From positions 1 through 64,000 of the IMG/VR virus record IMGVR_UViG_3300025652_000032: DNA of 64,000 bases; one strand, given 5' to 3'. Positions within the stretch are counted from its first letter, which is position 1. Every line of letters starts with the position of its first letter. The translations under genes and the position numbers were made by a program. The DNA comes from a virus. Shown here one piece after another: positions 10,825-35,948 of this stretch. Below the pieces are notes generated by a model. It worked only from the letters and a program-made list of their open reading frames with translations, was not told where the DNA came from and ran no database searches.

Positions 10825-11679
10825 ATGAAAAGGTTACTCTTATTGTCATGTCTTTTAATCGGATGTGAAACTACACCAGAACCATCAGCGTCGAGTACGA
10901 TCACTCACGCGATAGAAGTTCAGGAAGAAACAACAGAACAAATAAACGAATCCTCTACTATAATTGAGGAGAGTAGTGATACCATTCGTAGAGATGCGGA
11001 TGGTATCCTTGATATCACGGCGTTTGGAGAACGAACACCGGAGATCGAACGCATCGAAGACAGGGCGCACAACATAATCGATGAAACTAACGTCATCGAA
11101 AATGAAACAATAAAGACAAAAGAGGCATTAGAAGACCTAAATCGTGCAAATGAATTAATTCGACAAAGTGGCGCCAAAGTGGCACAACTGGAAAAAGAAG
11201 TTGCAGAGTTAAACAAAGAAGATGCCGCTTTACGACGCGAGGCGATCGAGAACTTTTATGGTACGATTACCCTGTTCTATGTGATAGGGTTCGCCGGACT
11301 CATTCTTGGTATCTTCATGGTTTCATACAGCAAGAAACTCGGCGGTACGCTTATCCTTGCAGGACTTCTGATTCTTGGTTTTGCTACTGCTTCCGTGTAT
11401 TACCTAGAAGAGATTGCAGCAGTAGGATTCTGGATCACCATAGCAGGAATCATAACTGCTGTTGGTACTCTGATCTATCTTATCCTTCGAGCAAAGACGG
11501 AAAGAAAGACAAACGATCAAGTGGTGGAGTTAGTCGAGGTAATCAAAGAAAAGATGCCACAGGACGTTCGAAACGAAATGTTCTCAAAAGGTGGTGTGGC
11601 ATACACAATCACCGATGCGTCCACCAAGAAAATAATAAACGAAGTTAAAGTTCGGAATGGATTTAAGCATACCCGTTGA
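10825..11679 (+). CDS. Lipoprotein with periplasmic coiled coil and three membrane segments
   Basis: 284 residues from ATG 10825, which sits five bases after AGGAGG; an in-frame GTG two codons earlier overlaps the ribosome site. MKRLLLLSCLLIGC is a lipoprotein signal with a lipobox (LIGC) and lipidated Cys14. Residues about 20-140 are acidic and predicted coiled coil, repeatedly carrying IE/ET heptads. Then come three hydrophobic spans at about 147-165, 172-191 and 198-218, and a charged C-terminal tail of about 60 residues. A lipidated N-terminus plus membrane-embedded C-terminal part recalls unimolecular spanins, although those have only one C-terminal span. Superinfection exclusion is an alternative. 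It converges with the next gene with a 17-bp overlap. Confidence 0.75.
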   Translation: MKRLLLLSCLLIGCETTPEPSASSTITHAIEVQEETTEQINESSTIIEESSDTIRRDADGILDITAFGERTPEIERIEDRAHNIIDETNVIENETIKTKEALEDLNRANELIRQSGAKVAQLEKEVAELNKEDAALRREAIENFYGTITLFYVIGFAGLILGIFMVSYSKKLGGTLILAGLLILGFATASVYYLEEIAAVGFWITIAGIITAVGTLIYLILRAKTERKTNDQVVELVEVIKEKMPQDVRNEMFSKGGVAYTITDASTKKIINEVKVRNGFKHTR

Positions 11680-12244
11680 TCTTTCCGTGTAGCATCTTAC
11701 AGATGTAATAGGCGTCCACGATATCCGATACCGGGTTCTGGACGCCTGTTTTCTTAGGTGTCATGATCTTACACAGATCCTTTCCCGTCTCTTTTACGAA
11801 CGCATCGAACATGAGATCCTTGGATGCATTACCTTTATCAGTTGCGAACTTCTTTACTTCAGTTGGTGCTACAACCTCAAGTGGCGTGGCAGACTGGAAT
11901 AACTTGTACTTCAGAACTCCCACGTTCTCTGCTAACTGGAATACTCTACCAGTTGCATTGAAGGCATATCCTTCGAGTGCTACTTGATCACATCCCACGA
12001 TACAGTCAATTGCCCAGTCTGATATGCTATCGTAACGTCCGGAGTCTGGACATAAGTTGACGGGTGATCCAATTGACTTGAATCGCTCACCCTTTATGTT
12101 CTTGAGAAATGATTTTGCATATTTCTCGGTGTCTGTGAGATAGAAGAACAAACAATGCTCAAACTTGAACTTAGCAGATGATGGTTTGGAAAAAACGCAT
12201 ACTGCTGGTGATGTTAAACTGTAATCGATTCCTGCAATGGCCAT
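11663..12244 (-). CDS. RuvC-like Holliday-junction endonuclease (RNase H fold)
   Basis: 193 residues. The RNase H-fold acidic residues are in place: Asp in AGIDYSLTSPAV (residue 6), Glu in QVALEGYAF (about 91) and the pair in VSDIVDAYYICK (about 175-178). Together these suggest a RuvC-type resolvase that cuts branched DNA before packaging, replacing T4 gp49, which I do not see in this window. The ATG follows GGGAGG with a seven-base spacer, and that ribosome site is part of a terminator stem. A late promoter lies inside the same hairpin, so late expression is expected. Confidence 0.82.
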   Translation of the reverse strand: MAIAGIDYSLTSPAVCVFSKPSSAKFKFEHCLFFYLTDTEKYAKSFLKNIKGERFKSIGSPVNLCPDSGRYDSISDWAIDCIVGCDQVALEGYAFNATGRVFQLAENVGVLKYKLFQSATPLEVVAPTEVKKFATDKGNASKDLMFDAFVKETGKDLCKIMTPKKTGVQNPVSDIVDAYYICKMLHGKINGYA

Positions 12245-12312: not shown

Positions 12313-13338
12313 TCAGAAACTAATAGTGATACCACTACGGAGAACGAACTGTCCCGAATCGGAACCAGATCGCCATCCAGTGTTTTCTGTGTCGAAGTTA
12401 CTACCGATACCCTCAAGAGCATACCCGGCCGTGTTGGTCCAGACAAGTCCGTGAGCGAGATCGTAGTTACCACCTACGGTGAGAATGTTGAGACTACCAT
12501 CGTAGTCACCAATTTCCCACTGTGCAAATCCTTCGAACTTATCGAAGCACTTATATGCAGCAGTAGTGACTACTGACCAGTTGTCGAGACTACCAGCACC
12601 TGCATCATTAGCAATCCAGTCTGCATCGAGAGTAAGAAGACCCTCGGTGAGTGTACCACCAAAGGTGAAACTGTTCACACCTTCCGTGACAGAATCATAT
12701 GCCCAACCACCGTTGAGTGACACGGAGTCATTCACACGATAATTCGCTGCGACACCGATGGCATACTTGTTGTCTCCAACTCCTACACCAGCAGTATCGA
12801 AACCATTGTTGTAGAAGGCGCTGACTTCGAAGTCACCGAATGATCGGAAGGCCTCAACACCTGCTCCGCGTCCCTGTCCGAAGGTAAGTGCCGTGACACT
12901 ATAGTTCAGGGTTGTGAGTTGAGTTGGATCAGTGACGTATCCAGCATAGAACTGGGGAACGAACTGTCCGACTCGAATGTTTGCTTCTTCGAACATACGA
13001 AGAGTAACGACTGCATCAAGCAGATCGAAACTGTTGGTAGCGTCCGACCATTCACCACTGACGAGGTAAGAGAAACTCTCGTTGCTCGTATCTCCTGAGA
13101 AGGTTAGACGGGCGCGGTCAACCGAAAAACCATTTTGGGCGGGAAGTCCGCCACCGTTGGAATACTCCCAACCAGTTTGAATGAAACCACCGACGTTGAT
13201 GCCGAGATGATTGTCATTGAGTGATGCTCTTGTTGAGGCATCAGCGAGGACAAGACTGAATGCGTCGTTGTCCATATCCTGTCCTACAGCAACTCCGCTG
13301 AAAAGACATGATGTAATAATAGCATTGATCATTTTCAT
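12313..13338 (-). CDS. Outer-membrane porin, phosphate-selective porin O/P-like
   Basis: 341 residues. Residues 1-19 form a Sec signal peptide (MKMINAIITSCLFSGVAVG). The mature chain is built of alternating beta strands and ends in ITISF, the terminal phenylalanine needed for outer-membrane insertion. Segments such as FSVDRARLTFSGD, FDLLDAVVTLRMFEEANIRVGQFVPQFYAG and FGQGRGAGVEAF follow the order seen in porin O/P family proteins (RARL, DAY, VGQFKPPF, GRGxGVQ), a group that includes phosphate-selective porins. It lies 24 bp after nrdJ, with its own AAAGGAGA ribosome site, and a terminator follows. Expression with nrdJ from a sigma70 promoter should be early. Solute specificity is inferred from the family. 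Confidence 0.82.
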   Translation of the reverse strand: MKMINAIITSCLFSGVAVGQDMDNDAFSLVLADASTRASLNDNHLGINVGGFIQTGWEYSNGGGLPAQNGFSVDRARLTFSGDTSNESFSYLVSGEWSDATNSFDLLDAVVTLRMFEEANIRVGQFVPQFYAGYVTDPTQLTTLNYSVTALTFGQGRGAGVEAFRSFGDFEVSAFYNNGFDTAGVGVGDNKYAIGVAANYRVNDSVSLNGGWAYDSVTEGVNSFTFGGTLTEGLLTLDADWIANDAGAGSLDNWSVVTTAAYKCFDKFEGFAQWEIGDYDGSLNILTVGGNYDLAHGLVWTNTAGYALEGIGSNFDTENTGWRSGSDSGQFVLRSGITISF

Positions 13339-13362
13339 AATTTTTCTCCTTTATGTTTTAGA

Positions 13363-15297
13363 TCAGTTTGTTAAATCTACGATTTCACAAGAGTTGCCTG
13401 TACATGCAAATGTTTGTGTTCCAGCGGTCTGATCTTCCTTCTCGTACTCTCCGAGGCCAGACCAATCGATGTTTTCTGGAAGCGTCTTCAATAGTTCATT
13501 GTACTCTTCCTTGGTACAATCCTGATATGGTGCTTGTCTGTATGTGTGATCTGAGAATGGAAGGAATGAAACTCCTGACATCTCGTTGAAGTGATCGTAT
13601 ACCCATGCACCAACTTCCATCCATTCGTCTTCCTTAACGGAAACCGTGATAGAAGGTTTGTGTTCACACCAATGTCTCTGGTATGTCAACCAAAGTTCAA
13701 GTTGTTCGATGGCAGTCAGATCCGTTCTACAAATCGCCTTATCAGGTGACTTCTGTGGGAACGAGAAAACCATCGTGTGTTCTGGTTTCATTACATCTGG
13801 TTCACATGGGAAACCCTTTTCCTTCATGAACACACACAGAGGATCCTTGATATCCGCACGGACAGTGCGAACGTAATAAGGATTGTGTCGAGCATGAATA
13901 CCAGATGCAGCATCAACCAACTGTGAAACTGTTCCACTTGGTTTCACGCAAGTGATAGCAGCAGATTGGTTGATGTGTAGTTTCTTTGCCCATGTCTTGT
14001 TGACATCAACAGAATGGGACTTGAGATCTTCTAGGGTTCCTGCAAGTTTACCGTTGGTAGAACCATTGAGTAATGCGTTGTCCATGATACCCGTGAGAGA
14101 AACACCAAGAAGTCTTTCTTCTTCGCAGTTCTTCGTCCACTCACTAGACAGGTACTTAAAGTTCAGAAGGGTAGACTGCCATGTTCCGAGGATCGTTGCA
14201 AGACGAACCTTTTCCTTGAGAGTCTTTATTGTGTCATCAGCACGAACGACAACTTCTGTTAGATTACAGAACTCACGATCACGCAAGATGATTTCGCTGC
14301 ATGGGTTGGTTCCGAAGTTGTAGTTTGGATCTCGGCGTTCGTCAACAATCTTCTTTACCTGATCCTGACACGCAGCACGACTAAACATACCTCTCTCGCC
14401 ACTCTTTGACTTATAGAGAGACAACCACTCTTCCATGAACGTACCAATTTCGGGTGTACTCTTATATGCAACGGAGTTGTTTGCAAGGGCCCGTTGTGCG
14501 TTGTGTTCCCACCACTGTCCAGTCTTTGCATCTCTCATTCGTTCATCAGTAAGTGAAGACAATGAGATAAGAGCAGATCGACGGACACCACCGACTACAA
14601 CAATTTCAGCAATCTTGCAGATGATATCGTGGCACTCGACGGTAGTGAGTTTTCTGCCTGCGGCCTTACGGTAAGTCTCTACCGTGAATTGGAAAAGATC
14701 CTCAAGAGGTTGCGGTCCAGATGCTCTGCCGCCGAATGTCTTGAGTCTTGCTCCAGCAGGACGAACTTTACTTGTGTCCCATTGTGGTACTTGACCACCA
14801 ATGAGTAGCGAGGTGAGTTCTTTATAAGACTTTGCCCATCCCATCTTGGAATCACCGACGACAATGACTGTATCACTCGCATCAAATTCCTCTGCAATCG
14901 TTGGAAGTCTGTCTACGACATCACGTTCTACGCTAAAACCCATTCCTGTCCCGCACATGAGAACGTAGAGGATCTCATCGAAGGAACGAGGACGACTCGC
15001 TTCGCAGTATGCACAGTTGTACCCTGCAATATTGTCGCGTCTCAGTGCCTCACCGGCAGTCATCAACGCTCTCATGGAAGGCATGATCTTGAGTTCACGA
15101 ACTGCTTTTTCGAGTTCGTTCCTCTGATCTTTCGTTACCTTGAAATTACATTCTTCCTTGAGATGAGTCTCAAAGAAATCAAAATATCTGGCAACTGTTT
15201 CGGGCCAGGTCTCTCTGCGTCCTTCTTCTTCCAACCAACGGGAATACCGTGATAGGTGAATAAAAGACTGGTATAGCGTGGGTAATTCATCACACAT
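13363..15297 (-). CDS. nrdJ: Adenosylcobalamin-dependent ribonucleotide reductase, class II
   Basis: 644 residues from ATG 15297; the GTG at 15309 overlaps the GAGGAG ribosome site and is less likely. The chain carries the class II reductase set: YNCAYCEA (first active-site cysteine, about residue 97), GTGMGFSVER, VGGVRRSALISL, GTNPCSEIILRDREFCNLTEV (thiyl-radical and partner cysteines with catalytic Asn and Glu), CVKPSGTVSQL and a C-terminal CTGNSC redox pair spaced as in Lactobacillus triphosphate reductase. It is single-subunit and about 100 residues shorter than that enzyme. It needs B12 from the host, makes dNTPs for replication and works without oxygen. A consensus sigma70 promoter precedes it and the porin follows. 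Confidence 0.93.
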   Translation of the reverse strand: MCDELPTLYQSFIHLSRYSRWLEEEGRRETWPETVARYFDFFETHLKEECNFKVTKDQRNELEKAVRELKIMPSMRALMTAGEALRRDNIAGYNCAYCEASRPRSFDEILYVLMCGTGMGFSVERDVVDRLPTIAEEFDASDTVIVVGDSKMGWAKSYKELTSLLIGGQVPQWDTSKVRPAGARLKTFGGRASGPQPLEDLFQFTVETYRKAAGRKLTTVECHDIICKIAEIVVVGGVRRSALISLSSLTDERMRDAKTGQWWEHNAQRALANNSVAYKSTPEIGTFMEEWLSLYKSKSGERGMFSRAACQDQVKKIVDERRDPNYNFGTNPCSEIILRDREFCNLTEVVVRADDTIKTLKEKVRLATILGTWQSTLLNFKYLSSEWTKNCEEERLLGVSLTGIMDNALLNGSTNGKLAGTLEDLKSHSVDVNKTWAKKLHINQSAAITCVKPSGTVSQLVDAASGIHARHNPYYVRTVRADIKDPLCVFMKEKGFPCEPDVMKPEHTMVFSFPQKSPDKAICRTDLTAIEQLELWLTYQRHWCEHKPSITVSVKEDEWMEVGAWVYDHFNEMSGVSFLPFSDHTYRQAPYQDCTKEEYNELLKTLPENIDWSGLGEYEKEDQTAGTQTFACTGNSCEIVDLTN

Positions 15298-15341
15298 AAT
15301 AAGTGTCACTCCTCTGAATTTTGTATATCAATAAGTTATGT

Positions 15342-15369
15342 ATTATAGCAGAACGAATACTGGTGTCAA
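15342..15369 (-). promoter_or_regulatory. Consensus sigma70 promoter of nrdJ-porin
   Basis: On the minus strand TTGACA (15369-15364), a 16-bp spacer and TATAAT (15347-15342): both hexamers are perfect. The start site would be near 15335, giving a leader of about 38 bases with GAGGAG before the ATG at 15297. The -35 box overlaps the stop codon of the upstream gene. Confidence 0.9.
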
Positions 15370-15692
15370 GCAGTATTTACTTCAGGTGCGTACATTAATG
15401 GACGGACACATGGTTTCGCTATAACTCCTGCGGCCGCTAAATCAATATCTCCGAGGAGTGCCGCAAAGACGGTAGCGACAGCATTGATATCTGCTCCTGT
15501 AAGACGACTAATACCTTCGGCATCTCTGCCGTCTTCTACTGCTTCATTCGCATCATTTGGGAAGTCAGAAGAGATTTGTGCCCACTTCACTGCGAAGTCA
15601 TCGCCTCTTGCCTTCATGTATCTAATATTTTCACACATCGGACGGATGTATTGGTTCACGAACTTAATTGCTTCTGGATCTGTAATGGCCAT
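15366..15692 (-). CDS. Hypothetical protein at the end of the tail-fibre module
   Basis: 108 residues, largely helical (AIKFVNQYIRPMCENIRYMKARGDDFAVKWAQI), then an Ala-rich part (INAVATVFAALLGDIDLAAAGVIA). There is no export signal. It is the last gene in the fibre module and has AGGAG upstream. Its stop codon overlaps the -35 box of the nrdJ promoter. The helical first half resembles small virion accessory proteins, but I recognise no family. Confidence 0.65.
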   Translation of the reverse strand: MAITDPEAIKFVNQYIRPMCENIRYMKARGDDFAVKWAQISSDFPNDANEAVEDGRDAEGISRLTGADINAVATVFAALLGDIDLAAAGVIAKPCVRPLMYAPEVNTA

Positions 15693-15735
15693 TGTATTTG
15701 CTCCTAATTATTTTTTGGTTATCATCTATATATGA

Positions 15736-17124
15736 TCAGACGGATCGAGTGATTTCTCGGACGGGAGTATTCACTCGCTCGAAATGTCGTCGAGGGGATT
15801 TTACCACGGAACTAAATCCGTTTGCCGGGAAATCTCTGTTCTTTAATAACGCACCTCCGCCGGCCTTGTTATTCAATCTGAAGTCTCCGTTTGCCGCATC
15901 GACAAATGGATCCTCAGTACAAGTTGTTGGATTTAGAACAGTCATATCTCCCGATGTTTGTGCAGATGTCATGTTGTAGAACACAGGACTGTCAACTATG
16001 TTGTGACCACCCATATGAAAAGTTCCAGAGGACCAACTAGTTGGGTCTGAATAAGAACTCTGGAGAATTCCTGTTTGACAGGTGTGGAATATACAATCTT
16101 TCACCCAATACTTTCTCCCTTTATGGGCAGCCCACTTCAATTCGGTATTAATATTACCAGCAGACGATGGGGCATAAAATCTAAAACCTGTGTTCATATT
16201 GTAAAATATACACCGTTCGAAGAAATGTTGATATTGTCCAGGCATTGAGTTCGTTGTAAAGGCGCCTGTCGAGGAAGACCCACCACCATCCTGACCGGCG
16301 CGGGAATGAACTCCAACTTGATTACCATTTCCAATGAAAATGCAATCGTAAAATTCACCACCATCACCGTGAGCGACTCTTACTTTCAGGAATGCACTCC
16401 ATGCAGCATCGCCGGCGAAACGGAAAACGCAATTGTGGAATCTCCCTTCATTAGTGTTGAAAGGTCCCTCGCTGCCAGTATTTCTTGTGAATGTAGTAAA
16501 GTTTGTCTGGGACAACCGATCTTCAAATTCACAATTATAACATTGAGTCTTCGCCGAGATTGACATCACGAGGCCTGCGTTATGATTGGCAGTCGTTCCT
16601 ACGAAGTCATCTGTTGATATAATATGACAATTCGTCATGGTTCCACATTCTATAGCCAATGAAGAGGAAGTGTTGTTATTGGAGCCATATTTCCATCCTT
16701 CGACTACGAAGTTAGACAACATGGCGCCACTCGGGACTGTCATCTGTCCACCATTTGTAACCCTACCCAGAAGTTTCGGTCTATCGTTTCCATGCACCGT
16801 TTCGAGTGTGTTTCCGTTTGCATATCCAATAATATGAAACCCATATGTCTGACCTGCGTAGGTTCCGGTTTCATCGTGTCGGAGAGCATTCCGGGTGAAT
16901 GTCTTGTTACCACCGGAAACCTTATATGCTGCTTCAGTTGTTCCTTGGAAAGTTGCTCCCTGATGCACCCAAAGAACTTGACCAACAGTTGCTCCGTCTA
17001 GTCCGTCCTGAATGTCTTTAAATCCTGTAGCATGAGAGAGTCCATCTTCACTGCCACTGTCATTATCAACATTCACATAAAAATTTGTCGTGTCTGCTGC
17101 GGGTTCGTAAAATCCTCTAGTCAT
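15736..17124 (-). CDS. Beta-helix tail spike or adhesin
   Basis: 462 residues. After a short N-terminal section with NFYVNVDNDSGSEDGLSHATGF, the chain shows the repeating pattern of a right-handed parallel beta helix: short strands with N, C, F and G turns such as LSNFVVEGWKYG, MTNCHIIS, QCYNCEFED, FHNCVFRF, FYDCIFIGNG, FERCIFYNM and VKDCIFHTC. The N-terminal SGSDDG-like sequence plus repeating xCxF turns is common in phage and bacterial pectate-lyase-like proteins. I see no convincing catalytic residues, so it may bind rather than cleave surface glycans. It starts immediately after the long fibre gene and is probably its late-transcribed partner. Confidence 0.75.
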   Translation of the reverse strand: MTRGFYEPAADTTNFYVNVDNDSGSEDGLSHATGFKDIQDGLDGATVGQVLWVHQGATFQGTTEAAYKVSGGNKTFTRNALRHDETGTYAGQTYGFHIIGYANGNTLETVHGNDRPKLLGRVTNGGQMTVPSGAMLSNFVVEGWKYGSNNNTSSSLAIECGTMTNCHIISTDDFVGTTANHNAGLVMSISAKTQCYNCEFEDRLSQTNFTTFTRNTGSEGPFNTNEGRFHNCVFRFAGDAAWSAFLKVRVAHGDGGEFYDCIFIGNGNQVGVHSRAGQDGGGSSSTGAFTTNSMPGQYQHFFERCIFYNMNTGFRFYAPSSAGNINTELKWAAHKGRKYWVKDCIFHTCQTGILQSSYSDPTSWSSGTFHMGGHNIVDSPVFYNMTSAQTSGDMTVLNPTTCTEDPFVDAANGDFRLNNKAGGGALLKNRDFPANGFSSVVKSPRRHFERVNTPVREITRSV

Positions 17125-17125
17125 A

Positions 17126-20217
<3,092 letters not shown>

Positions 20218-20236
20218 AAAAAGACTCCTTTTTTAT

Positions 20237-20244
20237 TATTTATG
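20237..20244 (-). promoter_or_regulatory. Late promoter variant (CATAAATA) for the fibre module
   Basis: CATAAATA on the minus strand overlaps the thyX stop codon and lies 20 bp before the ATG at 20217. It would switch the fibre genes from the upstream early/middle operon to late transcription. Confidence 0.65.
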
Positions 20245-20956
20245 CCGTGAGATACTTCCACGATTCGCGGAAAAGGGGTTGAATTACCCTACCAATCGTC
20301 GCCGCGTATTCTCGAATCTCCCATTGTGCGTGTTCATCGATGCGTTGCTTATAGAATCTTGCATACGCAGCAAGAGAACCCGTCCAGAACCATTCCGTGT
20401 ACATTCCCTGCGGGAGAGCGAATCGTGCTTGCTCTGGAGCGACTCCATTACGAAGTAGTTCATTGTATGTATACATTGCAAGACGCATCACATTATCAAA
20501 GTTCTTCTCTGCCTCAGGATGAACCGAAATGAAGTCATCACTGCCTTGTTTTGCTCCATCTGTTGGTTTCCCTCGCCATGATGGGTAGTAAAACTCTGGT
20601 TCGAACGAGACATAACGACGAGAGATCTCATTTTCAACAAATCCTTGCTTGTGCTTGAAGAACTGAGTTCGGATCGACACGGGTGCCTTGATCCTCAGCG
20701 TGATTTGAGGATGTGCAAACGGCGTCCAATGATTATGAGTTGCAAGGTAACGGATCAACTTCTTATCACCATCACACAGATCCCTTACGTCTTCGAGATG
20801 GTATTGGGATCCACTTTCGGCAAGTCGGGTGACTGCTGCTTCGTCTGTACACCAATCACTTTCTTTATTGAATGAAACTCTCGCTGCATTGCAAACGGTC
20901 AAATCACTTCCCATGTGATCGACGAGTTGAACATGTCCTCTATCTAAAACTCTCAT
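20240..20956 (-). CDS. thyX: Flavin-dependent thymidylate synthase
   Basis: 238 residues from ATG 20956, which has AAGGA nine bases upstream. ThyX makes dTMP from dUMP using FAD and folate. The signature region reads FKHKQGFVENEISRRYVSFEP. The second half of the ThyX motif (NExSxRY) is intact, while the RHR and serine of the first half are replaced, as I recall for other phage ThyX proteins. THNHWTPFAHPQITLRIKAPVSIRTQ and LPQGMYTEWFWTGSLAAYARFYKQR supply the substrate-binding and C-terminal parts. It starts 4 bp after the phosphate-permease gene and ends at the late promoter of the fibre module. Together with nrdJ and dut it supports thymidine nucleotide supply. Confidence 0.9.
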   Translation of the reverse strand: MRVLDRGHVQLVDHMGSDLTVCNAARVSFNKESDWCTDEAAVTRLAESGSQYHLEDVRDLCDGDKKLIRYLATHNHWTPFAHPQITLRIKAPVSIRTQFFKHKQGFVENEISRRYVSFEPEFYYPSWRGKPTDGAKQGSDDFISVHPEAEKNFDNVMRLAMYTYNELLRNGVAPEQARFALPQGMYTEWFWTGSLAAYARFYKQRIDEHAQWEIREYAATIGRVIQPLFRESWKYLTA

Positions 20957-20960
20957 GATA

Positions 20961-21905
20961 TCAATCCTTAATATTTTGAACAATTAGTACGATAATAACA
21001 GATGCTGCCAATCCAACCATTAACTTCAAGAAATCTTTCCCTACAATCGGGAACACTTTCTTGATACCATCTTTCTGACGGAAAGAGGCAATGGCAAGTT
21101 CTCTACCAGTAAGAAGTCCGACGAACACCCAAGTTGTTGACATAGGAATGTCGTTTACTTCCTTGAAGATGTATAGTATAACAAAGTAAAAGAGATCAAT
21201 CAAGGTTGCAGATCGAACATATTTCGTATTTTTCTTCTGTACTACGATCTCCTGAATCCTACCACCTCGGTGCTGAAGCATCCATGCAAGTCCACCAACG
21301 AACACGGCGGAGATTATAAACATCACTTCAACTGGAATCTGTCGTGGAAGATATACGGCGATGTTTGCCATATCATGACTCAACCATGTCCACCAAAGGA
21401 ATCCTGTGGTTATCCACTGAGCAATCATCCACTTTCGTTTATTCGATTCTTTGATACTCTTACCTTCATCGATCAGGCGAGTGAGCATCAACCAGATGAA
21501 ATATGCGGCAACACCTGCAACAGCATACCCAAGCATCGACTTCATCAGAACCTTCTGTAGCACCAGTGTTGATGCAAAGGCAGAAAGCACTAGGAATGAA
21601 GTAGAAACGGGAACACCGAAACGGGTCAATACAAGAAGCACTGCTGGGGCCAGTGCTTGATACCATTCTACTCCCTCAAACGGAATCTTGTTGAGTCTTC
21701 CGTAAGATATATCTCCGTCGTATGCCCACCAACCATACCAGATGGCAATAAGAAGCACAGATGAGGCGTATGCCCACATGATCTTCCAATTTACCTTTTT
21801 GTTACTCGCAATCCAAGTTCCGAGAGTCTGGATCGAATCATTTGCAATCACACTGTATGCGGCGAGGAGAAACCCTACCCACATCCATACTGAAATTTCA
21901 GACAT
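20961..21905 (-). CDS. PiT-family phosphate transporter-like permease
   Basis: 314 residues with about eight hydrophobic spans and no signal peptide, so an inner-membrane protein. The two inverted PiT repeats are visible. The first signature is VIANDSIQTLGTWIASN near residue 20, with its partner VPVSTSFLVLSAFAS near 98. The second is SHDMANIAVYLPRQ near 175, with its partner IPMSTTWVFVGLLTG near 252. PiT proteins carry metal-phosphate by ion symport. It is shorter than typical bacterial PiT permeases but keeps both halves. It lies between the primase and thyX genes, 1 bp after the primase stop, so it is expressed with the replication genes. Substrate inferred from the family. Confidence 0.82.
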   Translation of the reverse strand: MSEISVWMWVGFLLAAYSVIANDSIQTLGTWIASNKKVNWKIMWAYASSVLLIAIWYGWWAYDGDISYGRLNKIPFEGVEWYQALAPAVLLVLTRFGVPVSTSFLVLSAFASTLVLQKVLMKSMLGYAVAGVAAYFIWLMLTRLIDEGKSIKESNKRKWMIAQWITTGFLWWTWLSHDMANIAVYLPRQIPVEVMFIISAVFVGGLAWMLQHRGGRIQEIVVQKKNTKYVRSATLIDLFYFVILYIFKEVNDIPMSTTWVFVGLLTGRELAIASFRQKDGIKKVFPIVGKDFLKLMVGLAASVIIVLIVQNIKD

Positions 21906-21906
21906 T

Positions 21907-22959
21907 CTATACTCGTCTCCATTGATTTAGTTTGAGGGTTGCTCTCATACCAGTGAACGTGTTGTCGTTGATAACCTTCTCGATTGTTCGAGTTGATTTA
22001 TTGTATGCCATGTCATTGATATCCTTCTCCTTGATAGCAGAAGGCCAAATACAAATTTTCTTGCCGAGTTCGATCAGTCTTTCGTTATATCGAACTATCT
22101 GAATGTTTCTTGGTTCATTGTCTAATACATAAACACCATCACTGTGCTTGAGATGTGCTGGGATTTGATCAAGTGCGCCGGCACCAACCATTGCAATTGA
22201 GTTACGCAAGAATAGACTATCGAGAGGGCCCTCTACGATGTAAATTGTTTTCTTTGGATTGACTCTCCATTGTCCATACCACAGTCGATCAGAAGACTTG
22301 TCGCTCTTTACTGTGAGATACTTGACAGTTCGTCTTCGATTGGCATCATCTTTGAAATTGATGGAACGTCCTTGTGCTGCTACAACTTCCCCATCCTTGT
22401 TGAAGAACGGTATGACAAGTCTGGGTTCTACTCCCACTATATCATAACGATCTGGATCAATTCTTTTCATGAATGATCCGAAGTTATCTGTGTAATATAA
22501 CTTGTCCCAGTGTTCCTTTGGAATACCTCGCATGTTGACAAATTCAACACACTGATGATCTTTGGGCAATTCCTTGATACAAGGCACACCCTTCAGAATT
22601 TCTGGTCTGGGTTTTGGATTTGGTTTCGAAAACTTAAACATCTCTTTTTCCTTCGGTTTTATATAGTTAGACTTACTCGTCTCTCCATTCTTCCACCGCT
22701 CTAGAGAATACTCTTTCATTAAGTTAGGGGCAATCTGTTCAAGTAATCGATACAAAGAAAAACTTGCATCACAATTGTGACACTTGTAAAAGAAGTCGGT
22801 TCCCTTCTGAAAGAAGAACCCACGGGCCTTGTTCTTGTTTTTCTTTGAATCACCACAGATGGGACATCTGCAATTCGCCAGATTATCTCGCTTCCAAGCG
22901 AATTTTTCTAGTTGAGGTGACAGAAAATTAATAAACTTCTTATCAATATACGTTGACAT
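21907..22959 (-). CDS. 61: DNA primase, T4 gp61-like
   Basis: 350 residues, starting at ATG 22959, which overlaps the helicase stop as TGATG; an in-frame ATG 12 bases upstream is less likely. The N-terminal zinc ribbon has CRCPICGD and CHNCDAS. The TOPRIM core carries IYIVEGPLDSLF followed by GVYVLDNEP, giving the acidic catalytic residues. It makes RNA primers for lagging-strand synthesis with the gp41 helicase. Length matches T4 gp61 (342). Confidence 0.93.
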   Translation of the reverse strand: MSTYIDKKFINFLSPQLEKFAWKRDNLANCRCPICGDSKKNKNKARGFFFQKGTDFFYKCHNCDASFSLYRLLEQIAPNLMKEYSLERWKNGETSKSNYIKPKEKEMFKFSKPNPKPRPEILKGVPCIKELPKDHQCVEFVNMRGIPKEHWDKLYYTDNFGSFMKRIDPDRYDIVGVEPRLVIPFFNKDGEVVAAQGRSINFKDDANRRRTVKYLTVKSDKSSDRLWYGQWRVNPKKTIYIVEGPLDSLFLRNSIAMVGAGALDQIPAHLKHSDGVYVLDNEPRNIQIVRYNERLIELGKKICIWPSAIKEKDINDMAYNKSTRTIEKVINDNTFTGMRATLKLNQWRRV

Positions 22960-24365
22960 CAAACATTCCATCCAGCAAATTTCTGCTTGAACGAGTCCTC
23001 ACCAAATCCATTACCATACTCTGTATCTTCTGTTAGATTAGTATCTACCAATCCAGTTTGCTCATTCGGATCCACATCAAACAGTTTCATCTTCGCACGG
23101 TTAATGCCGACCACAAATTTCTTGTTGGTAACAACATCATTATACCTGTTCTTCAACTGCTTGATCATCATCTGATTTGCTTCTTCTAGTTCTTCAGTGG
23201 AAATCAAAGCAAACATCAAATCTGCCGTTGCTGGCAATCCGAATGACTCGGACGTATCTTCAAGTCCAACATCACTGTTGTTGAATCCAGATCGGTTTGT
23301 TTGTGTTGCTGAGAAAACTGGAACATTCCTTTCAACTGCAAGACCGCGAAGTTCTTCTGCGATGGCCTTGATATATGTGTAGGAGTTTACATTTGCATTT
23401 TGCTTCATTCGTGACGAAGCACAGATATTTAGGTAATCGATGAAGATAATATCAGGAATAAACTTCTTTTTTAGTTTCAGTTCATCGAGCAATGCCCTGA
23501 AGTGATTTGCATGTGCTGTGGCAGTAGGGTATTCCTTGACGATCAGTTTACCCGTACAACCCTGAGTTGCAGTTTCCAACTTCTTGTCGTAGATTTGCTT
23601 TGGTAGTGACTTCATGTCATCCATAGTGATGTCCATGAGGTTGGCATCGATACGTTCTGCAATCCGTTCTTCTGCCATCTCGCATGTGATATACAGTACG
23701 TTGTTGTTTTGTGAAAGACACGCTGCTGCATGATGACACATAAACAAAGACTTACCCACACCAGTACCGGCAAGAATCATGTTCAGTGTCTTGTTTGGTG
23801 TTCCGCCTTGTGTGATAGTGTTGAACATCTCAAGATCAAATGGGATTTTAGATTCCGTCTTGTGGTAGAATTCATAGCGTTCGTCGGCATCTTCGATGTA
23901 ATCATGTCCGATGTGAGTATCAAAGGAAACCGAGAGGGCCTCTGATAGGATTTCTGGTATGGCGTTTTCTGTTTGTGTTTCGTTCTTACCATCGATGATG
24001 TGGATCGACTCCATAATGGCATTGTAAACTGCTTTGTCTTTACAGAACTTTTCACTCTTCTCGTACAACCATTCATCATCCTGTTCAGTGAACGAATCAC
24101 ACAGATCATTCAACACTTCAACACATGAATTGAATTGATCTTGTGTTAGGTTCTTTTGGTTATCCAAAGAGATGACAATCGCCTCTTTTGTGGGACGATT
24201 GCCATACTCTAGGATAAAATCTTGAACAGACTTGAACAGAGTCTTTTCTACGATGTCGTGAAAATACTCGCCGTGCAAAAACGGCACGGTCTTCCGTGAA
24301 TACTCCTCATTCAGAATTAGGTTCTGAAGGATTAGTTTCTCTACGGTATTGTTCTCTTGATTCAT
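22959..24365 (-). CDS. 41: Replicative DNA helicase, T4 gp41-like (DnaB family)
   Basis: 468 residues, close to T4 gp41 (475). The N-terminal about 150 residues form the helical primase-interaction domain. The C-terminal RecA-like motor has Walker A LAGTGVGKSLF (about residue 203), Walker B IIFIDYLNIC and the DnaB-type H3 region VPVFSATQTNR. It forms a hexamer that unwinds the fork and recruits gp61. The start overlaps the upstream small gene by 59 bp, which is long but the N-terminus aligns with the family. Confidence 0.94.
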   Translation of the reverse strand: MNQENNTVEKLILQNLILNEEYSRKTVPFLHGEYFHDIVEKTLFKSVQDFILEYGNRPTKEAIVISLDNQKNLTQDQFNSCVEVLNDLCDSFTEQDDEWLYEKSEKFCKDKAVYNAIMESIHIIDGKNETQTENAIPEILSEALSVSFDTHIGHDYIEDADERYEFYHKTESKIPFDLEMFNTITQGGTPNKTLNMILAGTGVGKSLFMCHHAAACLSQNNNVLYITCEMAEERIAERIDANLMDITMDDMKSLPKQIYDKKLETATQGCTGKLIVKEYPTATAHANHFRALLDELKLKKKFIPDIIFIDYLNICASSRMKQNANVNSYTYIKAIAEELRGLAVERNVPVFSATQTNRSGFNNSDVGLEDTSESFGLPATADLMFALISTEELEEANQMMIKQLKNRYNDVVTNKKFVVGINRAKMKLFDVDPNEQTGLVDTNLTEDTEYGNGFGEDSFKQKFAGWNV

Positions 24366-25789: not shown

Positions 25790-25985
25790 TGTGTAATCTC
25801 CCAATATCTTCTTGTGCTTCACGCAATTTTTCACGCCGTTTCATTTTATCTTCCAATACGTCCTTCGGACAACTCTTGTCTTTCATGAGGAATTTTATAC
25901 TCCTCCCAAGATCATCTATTCTATCAGAAATTAAATTATGTGCAACCTTCAATGTTGCATGTTCAAGTTCCACTTTCAACTTCAT
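25776..25985 (-). CDS. Small helical hypothetical between glnII and uvsX
   Basis: 69 residues from ATG 25985, with GAGG nine bases upstream. It overlaps the glutamine-synthetase end by 23 bp and the uvsX start by 14 bp. The chain is almost all charged helix (LKVAHNLISDRIDDLGRSIKFLMKDKSCPKDVLEDKMKRREKLREAQEDIGRL), likely a coiled coil. I do not recognise it. The tight overlaps on both sides argue that it is a real coupled gene. Confidence 0.65.
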   Translation of the reverse strand: MKLKVELEHATLKVAHNLISDRIDDLGRSIKFLMKDKSCPKDVLEDKMKRREKLREAQEDIGRLHNEFS

Positions 25986-27051
25986 GCTCAACCTCTGCCT
26001 CATCGCCGCCGCGGATCGCGGCCACTGGTACTTGTTGCAATACACCAATGATAGATGTAAACGCCTGATATGGATCCATGTTTGCCGCGGGTCTTCGATC
26101 TTCGAGATGTCCGCGTTCTTCGTTTGCAGTATCCACAGGAATTCGAATAGACTTGGTTCTATCCGAAACACCATACGAGAAGTCCTCGATATGTGCAGTC
26201 TCATGCTTTCCTGTCAGTCGAAGATTATTGTCTTCACCATACACACGAATCAGTTCAGGATGATTACCGAACTCATCACAAACACTTTCCAGATATTCTA
26301 TACTGGATGACCTTGCCATACGCATGGATGGAGTCGAGAAGTTGATGTGTGCGCCCGAACCGTTCCAGTTACCGGTCTTTGGTTTGGGGTGGAGACTAAT
26401 GGAATACTTATATCTTTCACTAATCAGTTCTGCCATATACCTTGCCATCCAAAGTTGATCAGCAACGGTTAGTGCGTCCATGTATCCAACCTGATACTCC
26501 CACTGTCCGAGCATGACTTCGGCGTTTGCACCTTCGATCGGAACTCCCATTGTCTTACAGACTGCATAGTGTTCGTTGACAAAGTTTCGGCCGACAGTCC
26601 GCATTCCACCGACACCACAGTAGTACGGACCTTGTGGTCCGGGTGTACCCTGTTCCCACCCAAGAATAGTACCGCTTTCGGTGTTGTAGATAACATACTC
26701 CTGTTCGACTCCGAACCAGTAATCTCTGGTTTCTGGATTATCTTTGAGAGTCATGCGAAGAGGCGCACGGTAGTTTGTTTCGTGTGGTGTCTTTCCGTCT
26801 GAGTTGAATACTTCACAGAACACAACAAAGGTTTCCCACGGTGTTTTCGAGAGACTATACGGTCGAAGGATCAAATCACTTTTGTGTGGATCTGCCTGAT
26901 TACAACTCGATCCATCAAACGACCATTCAGGAATCATTTGGAGATTCATACTCTCCTGATCATCTTCTACTTCAATCAACTTAGTCTTACTACGAAGTTG
27001 TGGTGTGATGTTTCCATCCAACCACACATAATTTACTTCAATCCATTTCAT
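25963..27051 (-). CDS. glnII: Glutamine synthetase, type II (eukaryote/GlnII-like)
   Basis: 362 residues from ATG 27051, eight bases after AGGAG. Signature segments in order: PEWSFDGSSCNQA, WFGVEQEYVIY (two metal-binding Glu), PGPQGPYYCGVG, GANAEVMLGQWEYQVG (metal-binding Glu), KTGNWNGSGAHINFST (ammonia/metal His), RLTGKHET, SIRIP and EDRRPAANMDPY. All active-site residues that I can place are kept and the length fits GlnII (about 350), not the about 470-residue bacterial GlnA. It joins ammonia to glutamate using ATP. It sits between DNA polymerase and uvsX in the replication operon. It lacks the adenylylation-site region of GlnA, so it would escape that host control. Confidence 0.93.
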   Translation of the reverse strand: MKWIEVNYVWLDGNITPQLRSKTKLIEVEDDQESMNLQMIPEWSFDGSSCNQADPHKSDLILRPYSLSKTPWETFVVFCEVFNSDGKTPHETNYRAPLRMTLKDNPETRDYWFGVEQEYVIYNTESGTILGWEQGTPGPQGPYYCGVGGMRTVGRNFVNEHYAVCKTMGVPIEGANAEVMLGQWEYQVGYMDALTVADQLWMARYMAELISERYKYSISLHPKPKTGNWNGSGAHINFSTPSMRMARSSSIEYLESVCDEFGNHPELIRVYGEDNNLRLTGKHETAHIEDFSYGVSDRTKSIRIPVDTANEERGHLEDRRPAANMDPYQAFTSIIGVLQQVPVAAIRGGDEAEVEHEVESGT

Positions 27052-27061
27052 TCTGTATCTC

Positions 27062-29572
27062 CTATGCAAAAAAGGATTCTAGTGTGTTAACTTTTTCTGT
27101 GTTCCATCCAACCACGTTGAGAATGTTTTTCAGTGGATCGAGGAAACTTTTATCAAACTGTAGATCATAGTTTACAAACCTGTGTATGTCAAGTTCTTTT
27201 GGTAGACTGTTCGGGAAGGCGATAACCTGATCGTTCGTTGGGTTTGGAACCTTGAGATAAGTGAACTTGATCTTATCTCCCTCGACGATTGATCTGTATT
27301 TTCTAGACAACCCGCTGTTCTTGATCATCCTATTATATATCAGAGATCCCTTGACTGCGATTGGTGTACCCTTTGCGTAAACAGTGTTACTGTCTTGATA
27401 CTTCTCCATGCCAGACACGGAACGCGGGAACGAGATCTCCTCGGGATCGAGTTGATTGAATTCATCCCGGAACTCCTCGATGAACTGAATGATAGTGTCC
27501 TCGTCCGTGGACATGATCAACCCGATCACCTCCTTGAGTTTTTTACGGACGATCGCAGGAGTTGAACTCCGACTCGTCTCGATACCCATGATCTTGAGTT
27601 TCGGTTCGGCGTACCGAACACCTTCGGAGTCGAACACATTGAGCATGTACCGTTTCTTGGCAGTCCAGATACCCTTGTTCGCAATGACTTCTCTACCCAT
27701 CACCATCTTGTTGGTGTATGCATTCATCAGACGAGAGAGTCGATTGTACTCCTTCTCGATGAATGGTTCGATGATCTTCTCACACGAATCATCAAGGAAA
27801 TCTACGATGGATGTATCGTCCTTCTTCTTGCAAACCTTGTCTACCAGATCACCAAGACCAATGTACACACTGTCTGTGTCACTTGCGATAATGTAGTCTT
27901 TGTCATCGGAGTCGAGAGCATTGTTCAGGAACTTGTTTAGTGAATCCTGAATCCAGCGAATACTCAACTGCCCGGACAAGGTGATTGCTTCTGCCATATC
28001 GACATCGAAGTAGCGGAAGTATTGATTACCAATCGCACCATAAGCAGAGTTCAATTGAATCTTACGAACCAACTGGAAGTTGTTGAACTTTGCAATCTGG
28101 TAGTCTAGTTCCCGATTGTCGGGATCTTTCTCCTTCTGCTTCTGACATTCAATCATCTTCTTCTTGTACATGCTACGTTCTTCGTACATCTTCTCCATCA
28201 ACGCAGGGAGGAACCCCTGAACGTCTCGACGGTAGCACGTTCCGTTGGCAGCGATCGAGTAGTCTTTGCTCTTGTGGTTGAGCAAGGCCTTCTTCGGACG
28301 ATCACTTCCCTCAAGGATACCATTAGGCGTAATCATGTAATCTTTGTCCTGTTCGATCTTCGTCTCAGGACTGATGTTGTATTGCATGATCAAGTGGGGA
28401 TACAGACTGTTCAAGTCGAAAGACACAACCCAGTCGTGTTGTCCTACGATTGGATCCTTAACATACGCACCAGCGAATTGTTCATCCTTCTTGGAACCAG
28501 ACTTCATTGGAATCACAATGTTCTGTTCCGACAGATAATGATAGATGATCTGATCCCACGTTCGAACTTGGGAGAACACATCCTCGAAGTTTACCTTGGC
28601 GGAATACGCAAGTGCCAATGAGAGTTCGATGAGTTTGAGTTTCTCCTCCAATCGAACGATCAGTTCCACATCTTTGACATTGTACTCGACAAACTTCTGG
28701 AAGTCCTTCTTGTAGAACTCCGCCATACTGTCGAACTCGTCGTAGGATAGTTTCGCATCACCCAGTTCGACGTTGGCAATGTGATCCAGTCGATACGACT
28801 CTTGGTTGATATAGGTGAAGTTTCTGTAGAGATCAAGATAGTCAAGAACAGAAACACCCATGATCTGGAAAGTCTCATGCTCTCGATTCATTCGTTGGAT
28901 CGTCTTTGATCGGATCTTCTTCCACGGGGAAAGAAGGTTCACTTCCCGCTCACCCAACACGCGAATCATTCGGTTGACAAGGTATGGGATATCAAAGAAC
29001 TTAATGTTCCATCCGGTCACGATGTCTGGATGATCCTCATTCCACAATTCCAAGAATGTGCGGAGTAAATCCTCTTCGTTGTCGAATGAGTATTGCTCGT
29101 ACTCTTCCGGCAGATCGAACTCACCAAGACCGAAAACGAAATACTTACCATCAAGGCAGTATGTGATCGTGATCACTTCTTCGTTGGGATCAGATATCTG
29201 CGGGAATCCACCTTCACATGTCGTCTCGATGTCGATGGTGGCAATCTTGATCTTGTCGATGTCATAATCGACTTCTTTGGGAAAGATGTCACCAATGAAC
29301 TGATACACATAGTCAGTGTTGCCGTAGACTTGGAACCCTTGGACTCCATCATACTTACGAACAAACTCCCGACAGTCTGAAACTTGTCCGGGTTTGATCG
29401 GTTCGACAAACTTACCGTCCAACGTGCGATACTTAGTTTTCTCGTTTGATGGAAGGAAGAGTGTCGGGTTGTATTTTTCTCGAATCTGGGTGGGTTGTCC
29501 GTCTTTGATTCCTCGGTAGAGGATGTAGTCGCCAATCATTGACACGTTAGTGTAGAAGAAATCACTCGGCAT
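27062..29572 (-). CDS. 43: DNA polymerase gp43, family B
   Basis: 836 residues (T4: 898). The exonuclease domain has IATIDIETTCEG (Exo I, about 110), VTGWNIKFFDIPYL (Exo II) and VEYNVKDVELI (Exo III). The polymerase domain has FDLNSLYPHLIMQYNI (motif A), KIQLNSAYGAIGNQYFRYFD (motif B) and IASDTDSVYIG (motif C). The C-terminus (NTLESFFA) resembles a clamp-binding peptide. It is a proofreading replicase working with the gp45 clamp. It overlaps the next upstream gene by 11 bp and glutamine synthetase follows. Confidence 0.97.
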   Translation of the reverse strand: MPSDFFYTNVSMIGDYILYRGIKDGQPTQIREKYNPTLFLPSNEKTKYRTLDGKFVEPIKPGQVSDCREFVRKYDGVQGFQVYGNTDYVYQFIGDIFPKEVDYDIDKIKIATIDIETTCEGGFPQISDPNEEVITITYCLDGKYFVFGLGEFDLPEEYEQYSFDNEEDLLRTFLELWNEDHPDIVTGWNIKFFDIPYLVNRMIRVLGEREVNLLSPWKKIRSKTIQRMNREHETFQIMGVSVLDYLDLYRNFTYINQESYRLDHIANVELGDAKLSYDEFDSMAEFYKKDFQKFVEYNVKDVELIVRLEEKLKLIELSLALAYSAKVNFEDVFSQVRTWDQIIYHYLSEQNIVIPMKSGSKKDEQFAGAYVKDPIVGQHDWVVSFDLNSLYPHLIMQYNISPETKIEQDKDYMITPNGILEGSDRPKKALLNHKSKDYSIAANGTCYRRDVQGFLPALMEKMYEERSMYKKKMIECQKQKEKDPDNRELDYQIAKFNNFQLVRKIQLNSAYGAIGNQYFRYFDVDMAEAITLSGQLSIRWIQDSLNKFLNNALDSDDKDYIIASDTDSVYIGLGDLVDKVCKKKDDTSIVDFLDDSCEKIIEPFIEKEYNRLSRLMNAYTNKMVMGREVIANKGIWTAKKRYMLNVFDSEGVRYAEPKLKIMGIETSRSSTPAIVRKKLKEVIGLIMSTDEDTIIQFIEEFRDEFNQLDPEEISFPRSVSGMEKYQDSNTVYAKGTPIAVKGSLIYNRMIKNSGLSRKYRSIVEGDKIKFTYLKVPNPTNDQVIAFPNSLPKELDIHRFVNYDLQFDKSFLDPLKNILNVVGWNTEKVNTLESFFA

Positions 29573-29882: not shown

Positions 29883-30393
29883 TCTTCACTCCAGTGCTGC
29901 CGAATCCACCGATACGTTCGAGGTTTTCATCCTGAACTGTATCCACTTCCTCGAAGGAAAAGTTTATACGTTCACAGACCTCGCCCTGACAGATTCTGTC
30001 TCCATGATTAATTTTGAAAGGTTGTTGTGTTGTATTATGAAGCAATACGAAAACTTCCTTCCGGTAGTCTGCATCTATTATACCCTGTGAATTTGCTAAT
30101 GCAACCCCATTCTTCAAAGAAATTCCAGAACGTGCATGAAGACGAACAGAATAATTATAAGGCATAGAGAAAGCGAATCCAGTAGGCACCAGTATTCTCT
30201 CTCCTGCTTCCAACGTAATGCCGTCTTCCGAACACGGGACATCAAAGGCAGAATTAAACCTATCGTAAATAGTCACCATCTGTTTGTCCGGGACATAGGC
30301 ATGGATATCAAAACATGCCGATCCAGAGGTGGCGTGACTAGGCATAATAACATCATCATGTAGTTTTTCGATTTTCACAATTGTCGCGTTCAC
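29875..30393 (-). CDS. dut: dUTP pyrophosphatase
   Basis: 172 residues. The five trimeric dUTPase motifs are present: SACFDIHAY, ARSGISLKNGV, GIIDADYRKEV, GDRICQGEV and the C-terminal RIGGFGSTGV. It hydrolyses dUTP to dUMP, protecting phage DNA from uracil and feeding ThyX. The start is a GTG at 30393, which overlaps the upstream stop (GTGA) and has AAGGG nearby; a second in-frame GTG at 30378 is an alternative. An extra loop at about residues 38-58 makes it longer than the usual 150 residues. Confidence 0.93.
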   Translation of the reverse strand: MNATIVKIEKLHDDVIMPSHATSGSACFDIHAYVPDKQMVTIYDRFNSAFDVPCSEDGITLEAGERILVPTGFAFSMPYNYSVRLHARSGISLKNGVALANSQGIIDADYRKEVFVLLHNTTQQPFKINHGDRICQGEVCERINFSFEEVDTVQDENLERIGGFGSTGVKND

Positions 30394-31646
30394 TTCTTAC
30401 CCTTTCTCTTTTTGTATGAATTCTTCTTGCGGACTTCTTTGTCCTTCTTTTGCTTTTGTACCTCTACTTCTGCTTGTCGCTGTTCTTCTCTCTGCTTGTG
30501 TAGTTCCTGAACCTTCAGTGAATACTGACGGTGGTTCTCAAGCATACGGGTGTGTTCCGACTCGGGATAGTGCCTTTCACTGACGAGTTTCTCCATCACA
30601 TGGAACCCAACCTCGAAGTCATGACAGTAGAATGCAGTCGCACCCAGTTCATCAAGTGCCTGCCACTTGTATACTTCATCCGCGAGGAATAAAATGTCAC
30701 CATGTGGATAAGGTAGAGATGCTGCTTGCTTTGCATAAAGATATGCTGCCCTTGGCATGTTGTTCATGCGATACATCCGAGAAATCTGATGTAGAGGTTC
30801 TGCACGGATCGGTCGATAGTCATACGCCGCCATATACTTGTGTGCTTGGACATCGATCGGTTCATTGAGTAGAGAAGAACAAATTGCTACACGGAATAAC
30901 GCATAGAATGCTTCCTCTTCCCAACCGCCGAGTTCAGCACGTTTTTGATATGCTTCTGAGGCCTTCGTCCACTGTTGTGAATCGAAATAACTCTGCCCGA
31001 GATAGAACCAATATCTATGATTATCTGGTTCGTCCTTGAGTGCTTCTTCCAGAACCTCTGCATCTCTACTGTACTTTTGGATCGGTTCAATATCGACGTT
31101 TCGGTTTCCTTCTGTTCTTGCCTCAATGTGGTAGTCACCATCGATACGCATTGAAGTGATTTGCTCTCCCTCTGGAGCATTACAGTGGGCATACTCATGC
31201 AAGATACCCGAATACTTCCAACCCATATGAAGTTTGAAGACTTGGTTTCTCCACCATGTAAAATCACCGCGATGGATTTTCAGTGAGTATGAATGAGAGT
31301 CCATGACTTCTGGCCAATGGAAATTACCAGCGATAGAATCATCTGCATCAATAACCCATGCATACTCAGCATCACTCTTCTCGGCATTGTGGAGTGACTC
31401 GGTGCGTGATCCCATCTTACCGGCGTGATCACCAAATCCCTTCCAGTCAGACTGATGAACTTCACCGGGGATTCCCTTTTCATCAAAGAACTTCTTGATG
31501 ATGTCCTGTGTGCCATCAGTCGATCCGGTGTCAGTGATATCATACCTATCGATGTGAGGATAGCAAGACTCCAAACACCTTTCAATGCAGTGGTGTTCGT
31601 CCTTTACAATCATACAAAGGGTAATTTTTGGGCGTGAGTTATCCAT
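30390..31646 (-). CDS. Family 2 glycosyltransferase with TPR-like C-terminal part
   Basis: 418 residues from ATG 31646 (TGATG overlap with the epimerase gene). The N-terminal GT-A domain starts ITLCMIVKDEHHCIERCLES, contains TDTGSTDGTQDI and the nucleotide-sugar/metal motif VIDADDS. After about residue 190 come helical repeat pairs (YWFYLGQSYFDSQQWTKASEAYQKRAE) like TPRs, and a highly charged coiled tail ending KKRKGKK. Such GT2-TPR proteins transfer sugars to surface or other acceptors. It is the downstream end of the sugar gene island, next to dut. Confidence 0.82.
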   Translation of the reverse strand: MDNSRPKITLCMIVKDEHHCIERCLESCYPHIDRYDITDTGSTDGTQDIIKKFFDEKGIPGEVHQSDWKGFGDHAGKMGSRTESLHNAEKSDAEYAWVIDADDSIAGNFHWPEVMDSHSYSLKIHRGDFTWWRNQVFKLHMGWKYSGILHEYAHCNAPEGEQITSMRIDGDYHIEARTEGNRNVDIEPIQKYSRDAEVLEEALKDEPDNHRYWFYLGQSYFDSQQWTKASEAYQKRAELGGWEEEAFYALFRVAICSSLLNEPIDVQAHKYMAAYDYRPIRAEPLHQISRMYRMNNMPRAAYLYAKQAASLPYPHGDILFLADEVYKWQALDELGATAFYCHDFEVGFHVMEKLVSERHYPESEHTRMLENHRQYSLKVQELHKQREEQRQAEVEVQKQKKDKEVRKKNSYKKRKGKK

Positions 31647-32527
31647 CAATTCATCTCCAGTTCATTTTTTATCCAATCCCCAAGAGAAGTTTCAGGGGAC
31701 CAGTTCAATTCAGTTTTAATTTTATGAATGTTCGCAAGAGTGGAAGTGACTTCACCTTTTCTCTGCTCTATATGTATTTGATTTTCTGAAATCATATCAG
31801 CAATTTCTTTCACTGAATGATTTACACCAGAACCAACATTGTAGATTCCGCCTTTGATATCAGAATCTGCCATCATTATATTGGCACGAACCACATCAGA
31901 GACATTAACGAAATCCCGTTTCTGGTTTCCCGTTCCAACAATCTCTAGAGGAAGATCGTTCTTATACCTCTCGATGAAAATTGCAATCACTGGAGGATAT
32001 GCTCCATCGACACGATGTCCGTTTCCATACACGTTGAAGTAACGAAAGGTGTTTACATTGAGATCGTTGCTGTAATACTCACACAATTGTTCAGCACAAT
32101 ATTTTGACAGTGCATAGGGATTCAGTGTTGGTTTTAGATGAGAAGACTCACATTGAATTAGGTGATCACACTCATACACGGCAGAGGTAGAGGAAAAAAC
32201 AACGCGATCCACTCCGCATTCTTTTGCCGTTTGTAAAACTCTATTTGTCCCTAGAATATTTTGTCTGGTTGTATGAACCGGATCTTTCAGTGAAACCTGA
32301 ATGCTTGCTTCTGCTGCCATGTGAAAGATCGTGTCTACATTGTAGCGATCAATAACTTCGGTGAGTAGAGGAACATTGTTGATAGAACCAACATAATTTT
32401 TAGCATCTGGGTGCCAAGTTCCGTGAGCGTTCTTGTCCAAACAAACAACTTCTCTTCCCTCAGAAAGAAGAGTCTGGACTAAGTTGCTACCAATAAATCC
32501 GGCACCACCTGTAACTAAGTAACTCAT
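31646..32527 (-). CDS. NAD-dependent sugar-nucleotide epimerase/dehydratase (GalE-like)
   Basis: 293 residues. Extended short-chain dehydrogenase: GGAGFIGSNL binds NAD, FSSTSAVYE and YALSKYCAEQL provide Ser and the YxxxK pair, and RYFNVYGNGHRVDGAYPPVI is the substrate side typical of UDP-glucose 4-epimerases. It probably interconverts UDP- or GDP-hexoses for the adjacent glycosyltransferases. ATGA overlap with the methyltransferase gene upstream. Confidence 0.85.
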   Translation of the reverse strand: MSYLVTGGAGFIGSNLVQTLLSEGREVVCLDKNAHGTWHPDAKNYVGSINNVPLLTEVIDRYNVDTIFHMAAEASIQVSLKDPVHTTRQNILGTNRVLQTAKECGVDRVVFSSTSAVYECDHLIQCESSHLKPTLNPYALSKYCAEQLCEYYSNDLNVNTFRYFNVYGNGHRVDGAYPPVIAIFIERYKNDLPLEIVGTGNQKRDFVNVSDVVRANIMMADSDIKGGIYNVGSGVNHSVKEIADMISENQIHIEQRKGEVTSTLANIHKIKTELNWSPETSLGDWIKNELEMN

Positions 32528-34126: not shown

Positions 34127-34332
34127 ATTGTTTGCCTTCCCATTTTTATTTTGTTCCAGATTCTTTCGTAAAAATAGTAAACGAAAAATCCGGTAAGATT
34201 CATTAACAATGCGTTCATTAGTGCCTCACTAGAAACACCAGATAATAAAACCAAGTAACTATTCAGTATCGCAACAATCCTCCAAAGGATAGTTTTTGTT
34301 ATACTTCGAGTTTTGGTTTCCTTGAATGACAT
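34123..34332 (-). CDS. DUF2061 small membrane protein
   Basis: 69 residues from ATG 34332 (TGATG overlap). The N-terminus KETKTRSITKTILWRIVA is the hallmark of DUF2061 membrane proteins, followed by two hydrophobic spans (about 20-38 and 43-61). Bacterial relatives are sometimes found with sulfur or sugar activation genes. Here it lies between sugar-modifying genes. Function unknown; it could anchor the pathway at the inner membrane. Confidence 0.75.
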   Translation of the reverse strand: MSFKETKTRSITKTILWRIVAILNSYLVLLSGVSSEALMNALLMNLTGFFVYYFYERIWNKIKMGRQTI

Positions 34333-34829: not shown

Positions 34830-34831
34830 TA

Positions 34832-35947: not shown

Positions 35948-35948
35948 T

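Follow-up and report, generated by a model that had tools for sequence, protein, structure and literature searches.

The window analysed here, a stretch of 64,000 nucleotides, covers one half of a virus record 128,029 bases long. It comes from a marine phage that, with its T4-type major head protein, portal and scaffold (phrog_138, phrog_213 and phrog_237), belongs with the T4-like phages. A chimeric assembly was ruled out by the identical gene order on contigs from other samples. Two genes of the window, both intact and on the minus strand where the original prediction had placed them, are the subject of this analysis: one encodes an outer-membrane porin of 341 aa (12313..13338) with a signal peptide, a predicted 16-strand barrel and a C-terminal phenylalanine, and the other a PiT-like protein of 314 aa (20961..21905), whose profile and fold matches lead us to predict an inner-membrane anion (phosphate) carrier.

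The two genes lie in separate clusters, as had been proposed, and all of the neighbors described here are also on the minus strand. Directly upstream of the porin gene, in the same transcription direction, is nrdJ, encoding a B12-dependent ribonucleotide reductase (13363..15309), and a gene for a RuvC-like resolvase (11663..12244) closes this nrdJ-porin-ruvC slot. Above nrdJ and the porin gene, the perfect sigma70-type promoter of the original prediction is present as a consensus match (12/12; TTGACA-16-TATAAT at 15369-15342, with TG before the -10 element). The PiT-like gene is situated in the replication cluster, between the DNA primase gene directly upstream (21907..22971) and thyX (20240..20983), which overlaps its 3′ end; the same cluster contains genes for a DnaB-like helicase (22959..24365) and DNA polymerase (27062..29572). 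There was no excess of Pho boxes in the window (8 matches versus 9.8 expected). Other minus-strand genes of the window encode a long protein with collagen-like GNTG repeats, probably a tail fibre, between thyX and nrdJ (17126-19756), a glutamine synthetase between uvsX and the DNA polymerase (25963-27069), and, within 30390-35989, one glycosyltransferase and one aminotransferase that suggest a surface-sugar cluster.

An acidic porin in the nrdJ-ruvC slot

The description of the 341-aa protein as porin O/P-like was borne out, as in addition to its signal-like N-terminus and terminal aromatic residue it matches Porin_O_P (PF07396) at 26.9 bits (E 3.7e-6) against a curated cut-off of 20.9, the match spanning only positions 20-146 of the 370 in the profile, or one third. 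It shares with OprO and OprP of that family the motifs RARL..SG and VGQF.P and a 16-strand outer-membrane barrel, here predicted by an AlphaFold2 model (pLDDT 73), but differs from them in being strongly acidic and in having general porins as its nearest folds. The top PDB matches were OmpU, OmpF, PorB and Omp32 (probability 1.00), and all of the top 50 were general porins, with OprP and OprO absent from among them. OprP is a phosphate-selective pore lined with an excess of Arg and Lys residues, whereas the mature phage porin has 13 Lys+Arg versus 39 Asp+Glu (net charge -26, pI 4.05). Because of these general-porin fold matches and the deficit of Lys and Arg, phosphate selectivity of the porin is unsupported, although its conserved arginines (R75, R77, R122 and R334) could form a local anion site.

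The porin family comprises at least 130 viral loci in an alignment-based scan (a first scan had found 30), and 78 of 89 porin loci also contain nrdJ, usually as the gene immediately upstream of the porin. Porin_O_P was matched by 13 of 21 relatives at E≤0.1, and several family members match either no Pfam porin or other Pfam porins. The contents of the nrdJ-ruvC slot vary between loci, which may have a porin, a short barrel protein, a short barrel protein together with PiT, or unrelated genes such as one for a serine protease. The short barrel proteins form a second family of ~250 aa that is without a Pfam family (L047:9091-9861; also L045, L046, L048-L050, L055-L057 and L077) and is distantly related to the porin (profile match, prob 95).

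Where might a phage have obtained such a gene? A search by sequence of 50,697 deposited phage records found no porin relatives, while the control, nrdJ, was found 964 times. Nor was a close cellular source found, as 385 Alphaproteobacteria gave distant matches only; the cellular matches that were checked, one of these included, are Porin_O_P proteins. The original prediction considered a phage porin very unusual, and it is indeed rare but has precedents, as BFVD contains predicted porins of uncultured phages (A0A8S5S2G8, A0A6J5L4P1 and A0A6J5LP82) that, as here, are phage-encoded porin-like barrels, albeit with only 12-14% identity to the window's porin. If the assignment is correct, the protein would be one of the rare instances in which a phage remodels the outer membrane.

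A PiT-like protein and its likely substrate

The 314-aa protein scores 18.4 bits against PHO4 (PF01384), below the curated cut-off of 33.7, and 27 of its 33 relatives match PHO4 at E values up to 1. Since the cut-off is missed, we term the protein PiT-like rather than a member of PHO4. The sole PDB entry found by the profile of the PiT-like family was TmPiT (6L85, E 9.3e-5), and a canonical SAR11 PiT aligned with the family over its full length with the motifs in register, at moderate significance (prob 51, E 1.6e-4). Foldseek comparison of a moderately reliable model (pLDDT 61, pTM 0.58) returned 6l85 with a probability of 1.00 (TM 0.58, E 1.8e-3), the next matches having probabilities of 0.18 to 0.25. 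Consequently, the HMM search that had been suggested as a check of the PiT assignment missed the Pfam cut-off but, taken to the level of family profiles, revealed a moderate homology to a proven PiT transporter over the length of the protein.

In common with PiT transporters (PF01384, TmPiT 6L85 and human SLC20), the protein has an internal repeat, the signature Asp pair, the Ser loops and, in its moderate model, the fold match to 6L85, but at ~314 aa it lacks their large cytosolic loop and, besides its low PHO4 score, its GANDVANA signatures are degenerate. Both signatures and both STT motifs had been reported for this protein; the signatures are present with the divergent cores IANDSIQT and SHDMANIA, and only the second half has STT, the first half having STS. 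All 33 phage copies compared have both signature aspartates and both Ser loops unchanged (Asp23, Asp178, Ser101 and Ser256), which agrees with the residues known to be critical in human PiT2, among them D28 and D506 (PMC3126765), under the residue correspondence we assigned between the two proteins. In that correspondence His502, also critical in PiT2, aligns with Trp174 of the PiT-like protein.

The PiT-like family has at least 568 viral loci, although no relatives were found in the 50,697 deposited phage records, even at an E value of 10. Cellular homologs (53-60%) occur without phage neighbors on contigs from many marine bacteria, among them SAR11 and Flavobacteriales (L257 and other loci) and Cytophagales, and these too score below the PHO4 cut-off (15-18 bits). 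Phylogenetically, the phage copies group in a single clade (support 99/97) beside the chromosomal homologs of marine bacteria. That clade also includes three MAG sequences, which are sited on probable phage contigs. Of the MAG contigs with a phage-type PiT (L211-L215; Rhodobacteraceae Water_Bin34 and an uncultured bacterium), L212 and L214 resemble phage contigs that were binned with bacteria, and the same probably holds for L211, L213 and L215.

A question that follows from the divergence of the family is “Which anion does it carry?” The PiT family also includes sulfate carriers (CysP), and this fact, together with the PHO4 scores below cut-off and the tryptophan at the position of His502, would be in keeping with another oxyanion such as sulfate, a reading we consider highly improbable in light of the gene neighborhoods. 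In seven other phage loci pstS adjoins the PiT-like gene, and does so in two gene orders, with PiT first (L148, L153, L154, L156 and L157) or pstS first (L194 and L203); the record to which the window belongs has no pstS. Among the cellular copies, canonical PiT is directly upstream of the PiT-like gene in the chromosomal Cytophagales loci L264, L242 and L251, and in two of these three, L264 (6551-10168) and L242, canonical PHO4, PiT-like and Porin_O_P genes follow in a row. In SAR11, DUF47 and canonical PiT genes are located ~3 kb from the PiT-like copies (19 loci, which are one related group). In addition, only 2 of 12 bacterial genomes with a PiT-like gene had a canonical PHO4 protein scoring above the cut-off, all counts being from incomplete genomes, so that the PiT-like protein may serve as the phosphate carrier of those bacteria. 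Gene context, therefore, lends independent support to phosphate as substrate, and phosphate appears the likeliest candidate. We also observed that in phage locus L148 (10001-13137) PiT-like, pstS and a gene for a Bmp/PnrA-type substrate-binding protein occur in a row, and that 10 loci have the Bmp gene in the vicinity of PiT.

Shared and separate occurrence of the two genes

Do the porin and the PiT-like protein belong together? Contrary to the possibility that relatives never carry both, eight records do so, the window's and seven others, on contigs of other metagenomes. This joint recurrence and the low dN/dS values of both genes versus relatives (0.10-0.15 for the porin and 0.035-0.086 for the PiT-like protein) indicate conservation beyond chance. 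We found no support for a fixed unit, however, as most of the related uncultured viruses carry only one of the two genes, including long records of 136-142 kb with a porin but no PiT and of 173 and 237 kb with PiT but no porin, any of which may be fragments. Similarly, 33 of the 44 porin loci that span primase to thyX are without PiT (a count not de-duplicated by contig). The primase-thyX junction is better regarded as a cargo slot that can hold PiT, an epimerase, a methylase, a glutamine synthetase in place of PiT (L112, L116 and L097), or nothing. That the junction is empty (a 2-bp gap) in L008, L009 and L014 despite porins there 82-99% identical to that of the window, and holds other cargo elsewhere, argues that the two genes have been shuffled separately.

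On balance we lean toward the explanation that these are two separately acquired and shuffled cargo genes for envelope transport, one for a phosphate carrier and one for a general pore. The PiT-like protein would sit in the host inner membrane and, judging from its motifs and gene neighbors, import inorganic phosphate through the ion symport typical of PiT proteins. The porin, on the basis of its predicted fold, would be a general 16-strand diffusion channel, presumably inserted into the outer membrane of the host at an early stage of infection, that widens the passage of small solutes, phosphate included, without being dedicated to phosphate. Both would thereby make more precursors available for DNA synthesis, which matches their location among nrdJ, thyX and the replication genes. 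Several observations run counter to this explanation. On the PiT side these are the moderate model, the low PHO4 scores, Trp174 and the sulfate carriers within the family; on the side of shuffling, nearly all PiT carriers in the clade have an outer-membrane barrel gene, which purely independent shuffling does not predict. Specifically, where the nrdJ-ruvC slot is spanned, a barrel gene is present in 17 of 18 PiT carriers of the clade compared with 16 of 61 loci without PiT from a ruvC-anchored background sample (p 2e-7, rising to 0.0014 when the loci are roughly collapsed to lineages; neither is the p-value of an independent test). Given the kinship among the loci and the different ways in which the two samples were obtained, we regard this association as a lead and not as proof, and a functional coupling of PiT with an outer-membrane barrel as possible.

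The barrel association is also an argument for a dedicated phosphate path, in which an outer-membrane channel feeds the periplasm, the PiT-like carrier imports the phosphate and selection keeps the genes together. The eight records with both genes, nine loci in which the second, shorter barrel protein adjoins or occurs together with PiT, and the adjoining PiT-like and Porin_O_P genes of Cytophagales are consistent with such a path, yet the porin family occurs mostly without PiT, also on long records, the porin is acidic and lacks the excess of basic residues of OprP, and kinship and unlike sampling weaken the p-values, so that we consider it unlikely. A phosphate path through both membranes, as originally predicted, is possible, but of its parts the PiT side has found support and the phosphate-selective porin and the fixed pair have not. 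If most porins occur without PiT, could the porin instead have no nutrient role and act at the cell surface, replacing or masking a receptor and excluding other phages? There is a precedent in the lambdoid phage PA-2, whose porin gene (lc) is thought to keep other phages out in this manner. Over 81 members of the family, however, the strands and the presumptive constriction loop (127-157) are well conserved and the longer loops are not conspicuously hypervariable, the porin is in a clean cluster with nrdJ, and the cellular matches that were checked are Porin_O_P proteins, all of which make surface alteration improbable.

Two separately acquired cargo genes thus being our preferred explanation, a broader proposal is that uncultured marine T4-like phages have a two-membrane phosphate route (a barrel and a PiT-like protein, with pstS in some relatives) and that the PiT-like clade represents a phosphate carrier that is widely shared by marine phages and marine bacteria but has gone unrecognised, a proposal that is tentative and, as a whole, rather doubtful. 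Phage production is phosphate-limited in parts of the ocean. If the proposal were true, a widespread phage inner-membrane carrier, adjacent to pstS in some phages, would have been missed by standard thresholds, and phages would bring their own phosphate permease. Phages are known to carry the phosphorus-acquisition genes pstS and phoA, and pit has been described in soil phages (PMC10987575, PMC6359870); the window's phage resembles these in carrying a likely phosphate uptake gene, but its marine clade is divergent and falls below the Pfam cut-off. In aquatic phages, pstS is stated to be the one phosphorus gene with experimental validation (PMC10987575). As far as we searched, no porin is among the phage phosphorus genes listed in these studies (PMC10987575, PMC6359870), and a literature search for phage porins linked to phosphate found nothing relevant. 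With regard to the host of the window's phage, its nrdJ is most similar (64%) to that of HMO-2011, a phage of SAR116, and to those of roseophages, which hints weakly at an alphaproteobacterial host.
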